Assembly: GCA_012798515.1 (NCBI GenBank)
Contig: JAAZNB010000422.1
Span: forward strand, 1-33,599
Source of the DNA: Chloroflexota bacterium
GTDB taxonomy: Bacteria; Chloroflexota; Anaerolineae; Anaerolineales; Anaerolineaceae
Length of the DNA stretch: 33,599 nucleotides
Direction: 5' to 3'
A program made the translations under genes and the position numbers. Positions within the stretch are counted from its first letter, which is position 1. Each line of letters begins with the position of its first letter. Positions 16,851 through 18,026 of this stretch are shown piece after piece. The notes beneath the pieces were generated by a model. That model was not told the DNA's origin and ran no database searches. It worked only from the letters and a program-made list of their open reading frames with translations.

Positions 16851-16946
16851 GGGCGCCTGCTTTGGAGATTGGCCGGCCGTAAAAATTCAACCGAATTGTA
16901 GAGCACTCCCGGGGTTAATCCGGGGGTGCTCCTGGTGAGAATCCGG

Positions 16947-16952
16947 TATAAT
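16947..16952 (+). promoter_or_regulatory. -10 hexamer TATAAT 6 nt before the selD start codon
   Basis: TATAAT-tattct-ATG. Confidence 0.65.
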
Positions 16953-16958
16953 TATTCT

Positions 16959-18026
16959 ATGAGTAACCCCAATCTGGCTCCTTCTGGACGACAGATTCGC
17001 CTTACCAGCCTTTCCAGTTGTGCAGGTTGAGCTTCCAAGCTAAGCGCGGAAGCGCTGGCGCAGGTTCTGCGCCCCCTGGGCGGCCTTTACCAGGCTGCCA
17101 ATTATCCTGACCTGCTGGTCGGTTTAGGTGAACCTGACGATGCAGCTGTGTGGCGCCTGGATGACCAACGCGCCCTGGTGGTGACTACGGACTTCTTCAC
17201 CCCCGTGGTAGATGACGCCTATGACTATGGCGCCATTGCCGCCGCCAACAGCCTGTCGGATGTCTACGCAATGGGCGGGCAGCCGTTCCTGGCCCTCAAT
17301 ATTGCCGCGCTTCCCCCCGACCTGCCTCCCGAGATCCTCACCGAGATCATCCGCGGCGGCGGCGAAAAGGCATTGGAGGCCGGCGTGGTCATTGTGGGCG
17401 GGCATACCGTCCAGGATAAAGAGCCCAAGTTTGGCCTGGTGGCCATTGGCTTTGTGGATCCCGGGCGTATGATCACCAAGGGCGGGGCGCGCCCGGGGGA
17501 CCGCCTGGTGCTGACCAAGCCCCTGGGCTTCGGCGTGGTCACCACGGCCTTGAAGCGTGAGGTAGTCGAGCCGCAGGATCTGGCTGAAGCGGTGGGATGG
17601 ATGAAACGCCTGAACCAGGGCGCGGCCGAGCTGGCCAATTCCTTCGATGTGCGCGGCGGGACCGATGTGACCGGTTACAGCCTGCTGGGCCACGGCCTGG
17701 AAATGGCCCGTTCCAGCCGGGTGGGGCTGCGTATCGAATACGATAAGATCCCCTTCTTGAACTGTGCCCGCAAGTACGCCGAACAGTGGACCTTCCCGGG
17801 TGGGGCCGCGGATAACCGCCTGTATTTCCAATCCCAGGTGCGCTTCGACGCTCGCCTGGACGAAGCCGCCCAGATGCTGCTGTTCGACCCGCAGACCAGC
17901 GGCGGCCTGCTGCTGGCCGTTTCTCCGCAAAAGCGCGCCACTATGATCGACTGGGCCTGGGCAACCCAACGCACGGCCTGGGAAATCGGCGAGGTGGTCG
18001 AGGGGAATGGCATTCAGGTGGTCTGA
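16959..18026 (+). CDS. selD: Selenide, water dikinase, probable selenoprotein with Sec24 encoded by TGA 17028-17030
   Basis: [91 protein letters not shown]...; single in-frame TGA aligns with E. coli SelD Cys17 (CxxK); no other stop between 16959 and 18024. Confidence 0.93.
17057..17073 (+). promoter_or_regulatory. Putative bacterial SECIS apical hairpin
   Basis: GGCGCAG-GTT-CTGCGCC, perfect 7-bp stem, loop starting with G, 33 nt after the TGA; resembles E. coli fdhF UUGCAGGUCUGCA. Confidence 0.8.

Follow-up and report, generated by a model that had tools for sequence, protein, structure and literature searches.

Results

The selD locus

The window, that is, the whole stretch of 33,599 nucleotides that was analysed, carries a gene for selenide water dikinase (selenophosphate synthetase, SelD), with an SPFH/HflK-like gene upstream, a gene for a TadA-like deaminase overlapping its end, and uvrC also among its neighbours. 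The features of the locus are as follows:

16901–16931, forward strand: inverted repeat GAGCACTCCCGG ... CCGGGGGTGCTC between the SPFH gene and selD, with no T-run
16947–16952, forward strand: TATAAT, resembling a −10 hexamer, 6 nt upstream of the ATG
16959–18026, forward strand: selD, 355 aa with the predicted Sec24 (TIGR00476, PF00586, PF02769)
17028–17030, forward strand: in-frame UGA at residue 24, predicted to encode Sec and matching E. coli Cys17 in the 3U0O alignment; TGA in 129 of 130 homolog loci
17037–17039, forward strand: codon for Lys27, the counterpart of E. coli Lys20; Lys in 114 of 114 distinct TGA-type sequences
17043–17056, forward strand: preceding hairpin AGCGC-GGAA-GCGCU, with compensatory changes at two pairs; less conserved
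17057–17073, forward strand: predicted bacterial SECIS hairpin, GGCGCAGGUUCUGCGCC, 32 nt after the UGA, loop GGUUC at 17063–17067, with compensatory changes
17148–18026, forward strand: truncated ORF from standard calling, start GTG, without Sec24 and Lys27

The selD frame opens at ATG 16959, meets a single internal TGA at residue 24 and ends with a terminal TGA at 18024–18026, in agreement with the preliminary description, which had extended the frame upstream of 17148 through exactly one stop. With this TGA read through, the protein matched TIGR00476 with 360.7 bits (cut-off 125) over profile positions 1–310 of 311, whereas the product of the standard ORF call, which starts 63 codons downstream of ATG 16959, scored 310.7 bits and began at profile position 51; only the read-through protein matched the profile over its full length. 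Both the identification of the gene as selD and the claim that the standard call loses 63 residues, including the catalytic Sec and Lys, were borne out by these matches. A phmmer alignment with E. coli SelD (PDB 3U0O), a full-length homolog, placed residue 24 on Cys17 and residue 27 on Lys20, which is the position and spacing that had been proposed. The full-length match above the curated cut-off, together with the predicted Sec24 and Lys27 in the N-terminal loop, places the protein in the SelD family, and the closest relative shares 74% identity with it. A selD gene with an in-frame TGA at the catalytic position is thereby confirmed in every detail.

Conservation of the in-frame TGA

Among 60 related genomes searched, 47 had a SelD with one internal TGA, and a scan of species genomes added 80 further loci, mostly from Anaerolineae and including named isolates. 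The catalytic codon could be read through the motif RLT...CAG[*/C]..K in 130 loci from Anaerolineales and other Chloroflexota; some genomes were in both sets, and 114 distinct sequences remained after the removal of duplicates. The codon was TGA in 129 of these loci and TGC in one, and the isolates with TGA comprise Longilinea arvoryzae, Levilinea saccharolytica, Leptolinea tardivitalis, Ornatilinea apprima and Leptolinea sp. HRD-7. Identity at codon positions 1, 2 and 3 was 0.78, 0.89 and 0.43 before the TGA and 0.80, 0.91 and 0.61 after it, a pattern that indicates protein-coding constraint on either side. Because of this constraint and the near-invariance of the codon, the in-frame TGA is not a matter of chance. 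Cys occupies the equivalent of Sec24 in E. coli SelD, in the SelD of one relative (G016) and in fused SelDs, so the conserved UGA stands where other homologs have Cys.

The SelD of G016 (L085), a single-contig genome, is the one with TGC, and a search of this genome found no selA, selB, selC or MnmH. Six other relatives (G003, G015, G027, G009, G028 and G032; loci L096–L101) have open frames of 735–796 aa whose SelD part carries the catalytic Cys; these are probably the known NADH dehydrogenase-SelD fusion. Two of them, G028 and G032, possess selA, and a Sec-type SelD was found in neither. Second, more distant Sec-type SelD copies occur in G003, G024, G031 and G055 (L082, L080, L083 and L086), that of G055 with a tRNA-Sec gene some 3 kb away.

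A conserved hairpin downstream of the UGA

Over the 114 distinct sequences, the 48 nt after the UGA folded with a mean energy of −18.2 kcal/mol, against −10.6 for synonymous-codon shuffles (mean z −2.45), and the stretch from +26 to +44, numbered from the base that directly follows the UGA, gave −10.5 against −3.1 (mean z −3.2). The hairpin at 17057–17073 has an energy of −12.1 kcal/mol, compared with −3.6 for synonymous-codon shuffles. Four of its six pairs are kept in at least 112 of the 114 sequences, and the remaining pairs in 105 and 102. Numbered from the U of the UGA, pair 31–45 is G-C, A-U, G-U or U-A and pair 32–44 is C-G or A-U; 96% of the cells are paired, and neither the pairing nor the covariation score was matched by any of 500 shuffles or by slid partners, a count that is not to be read as a probability since the sequences share ancestry. 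The compensatory changes are of several kinds: G-C to A-U, G-C to U-A (L177, L079) and C-G to A-U (L173). In nearly all sequences, GU stands in the middle of the loop. A published model of the bacterial SECIS (PMC13188914) requires a loop of 3–9 nt, a stem of 4–16 bp, a spacing of 16–37 nt, a minimum free energy of at most −7.5, and also a G at loop position 1 or 2; the hairpin, with a stem of 6–7 bp, a G-first loop of 3–5 nt, a spacing of 32–33 nt and the above energy, agrees with it on every point. The window gave nothing at the Rfam gathering thresholds, and the single-sequence fold of the region did not stand out from dinucleotide shuffles (z −0.98). It is covariation and the codon-preserving shuffles, not the single-sequence fold, that point to a SECIS here.

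The preceding hairpin at 17043–17056 also fits the geometry of the model (loop GGAA, spacing 17 nt), but one of its pairs is disrupted in 42 of the 114 sequences and another in 47, so it was rejected as the main SECIS and 17057–17073 is the better candidate. It is possibly an accessory to the latter. In four genomes that represent three further families within the order (G052, G039, G045 and G050; L087, L089, L091 and L093) the hairpin lies at about nt 17–36, some four codons nearer to the UGA, and its loop still contains GU.

The SECIS of E. coli fdhF is likewise a short stem-loop after the UGA, with apical AGGUCU where the window has the similar AGGUUCU. Counted from the U of the UGA, this loop motif occupies nt 21–26 in fdhF (E. 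coli genome record) and nt 35–41 in the window's selD; the hairpin loop of the four genomes just mentioned sits at about the fdhF position, unlike that of the window.

Selenium machinery in the draft genome and in relatives

The window belongs to a draft genome in 768 contigs (97.75% completeness, 8.96% contamination). The preliminary description had proposed looking for selA, selB and selC in it: selB was found (C160:12773-14644; 332.4 bits; SelB winged-helix domains), selA and selC were not, the RNA-family searches for selC having scored only part of the candidates. The selC candidates of this genome turned out to be ordinary tRNAs for Arg, Leu, Gly, Tyr, Ser and Leu, and no selA adjoined selB among the neighbours scanned. 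Neither FdhA (TIGR01591) nor MnmH (TIGR03167) was found in the draft. The absence of the three sel genes from a complete genome had been named as grounds for abandoning the selenoprotein reading; the genome here is a draft, and selB is present.

Among the 60 relatives, selA was detected in full or in part in 50. At least part of it was present in 45 of the 47 genomes with a TGA-type SelD, compared with 5 of the 13 without (Fisher p = 1.9e-5). A tRNA-Sec gene (selC) scored above the Rfam cut-off in 42 of 60, and ARAGORN confirmed tRNA-Sec in all five relatives tested. The Rfam search loses genes, as a DNA search gave further matches, some partial, in G004, G024, G037 and G043. Three relatives (G007, G013 and G036) possess selA, two of them together with selB and selC, and yielded no SelD over the cut-off, which could reflect either assembly gaps or another source of selenophosphate.

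In the relatives, selA and selC lie mostly on different contigs or far apart, so that two separate gaps would be needed to explain their absence from the window's draft, and this is the one weak point of reading the gene as Sec-type. Given a draft of 768 contigs in which selB is present, assembly gaps are nevertheless the most likely explanation, and this strain would then possess both genes.

Discussion

The window gene is almost certainly a Sec-type selD that is translated by SelB-dependent insertion of Sec at UGA 17028–17030. The reading of selD as a selenoprotein gene, put forward in the preliminary description, is supported: it agrees with the conserved TGA, with the SECIS-like hairpin and its covariation, with selB in the draft itself, and with selA and selC in relatives. 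With the UGA in the A site of the ribosome, the downstream hairpin at 17057–17073, perhaps together with the preceding one, would hold SelB, and SelB would deliver Sec-tRNA-Sec; translation would then run on to the UGA at 18024. We infer from the homology that Sec24 in the N-terminal loop and Lys27 take part in the formation of selenophosphate from selenide and ATP; the product would feed the synthesis of Sec, including that needed for the synthesis of SelD itself.

Other explanations of the internal TGA have to be weighed against this one. An error of sequencing or assembly, the true codon being TGC or TGT and the protein an ordinary Cys-type SelD, might be considered because a Cys-type SelD exists in the family, with TGC in a single-contig genome (G016). 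However, more than 100 homologs, some of them from isolates, have TGA at this codon, which makes an error not credible; a covarying hairpin follows the TGA, and the Cys-type gene of G016 lacks this hairpin. We regard such an error as extremely improbable. The TGA might also be a nonsense mutation, which would leave either a selD pseudogene or a shortened SelD translated from GTG 17148, and the failure to find selA and selC in the draft would fit this. Against it, conservation across the order covers the TGA as well as the codons around it, with protein-coding constraint, the product from 17148 would be without the catalytic Sec and Lys, and the draft has selB; this explanation, too, is highly improbable and was rejected, like the error, on the conservation of the TGA. 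Nothing was found in favour of a third alternative, in which TGA would encode an amino acid, e.g., Trp or Gly, throughout the genome, and it is practically inconceivable: several conserved genes of the window end in TGA and none of the other genes checked has an internal TGA. The codon thus serves as an ordinary stop here, and its use in the window's other genes refutes a reassignment.

Sec-containing SelD (SPS2) has been described in bacteria and archaea, e.g., in Pasteurellales, Clostridia and Deltaproteobacteria (PMC1794560, PMC4561486), with Sec always at the same position of the protein (PMC4561486). The window gene shares with these the enzyme family, the position of Sec, a UGA within the coding region and the SelB-dependent system, and in the known bacterial genes, as in the window, the SECIS hairpin lies just 3' of the UGA. 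It differs only in its lineage (Anaerolineales, Chloroflexota) and in details of the hairpin, which lies 32 nt after the UGA and has a second, weaker hairpin before it. The mechanism is thus best read as standard SelB-dependent Sec insertion involving no new principle, and the Anaerolineales gene as a further example of an already well-known type; our literature search found no paper on the SelD of Anaerolineae. A more far-reaching view, prompted by the lack of FdhA and MnmH, the two other families searched for in the draft, is that SelD is one of very few selenoproteins in this strain, or the sole one, with Sec decoding kept largely to make its own supplier, and that between lineages the SECIS hairpin has moved by about four codons without losing its GU-containing loop. 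We consider this view rather unlikely.

Gene callers that treat TGA solely as a stop remove the catalytic N-terminus of SelD, so that the selenium pathway can be overlooked or wrongly assessed when Anaerolineales genomes are annotated. The family is also well sampled and has a covarying SECIS hairpin at a varying distance from the UGA, which makes it useful for studies of recognition by SelB.

The region upstream of selD

In 25 of 115 homologs, TATAAT or TACAAT occurs 6–10 nt upstream of the start codon, compared with about 1.2 expected by shuffling, which suggests that the selD mRNA may be leaderless in the window and in part of the Anaerolineaceae. The inverted repeat at 16901–16931 probably forms a terminator-like hairpin that belongs to the upstream gene.
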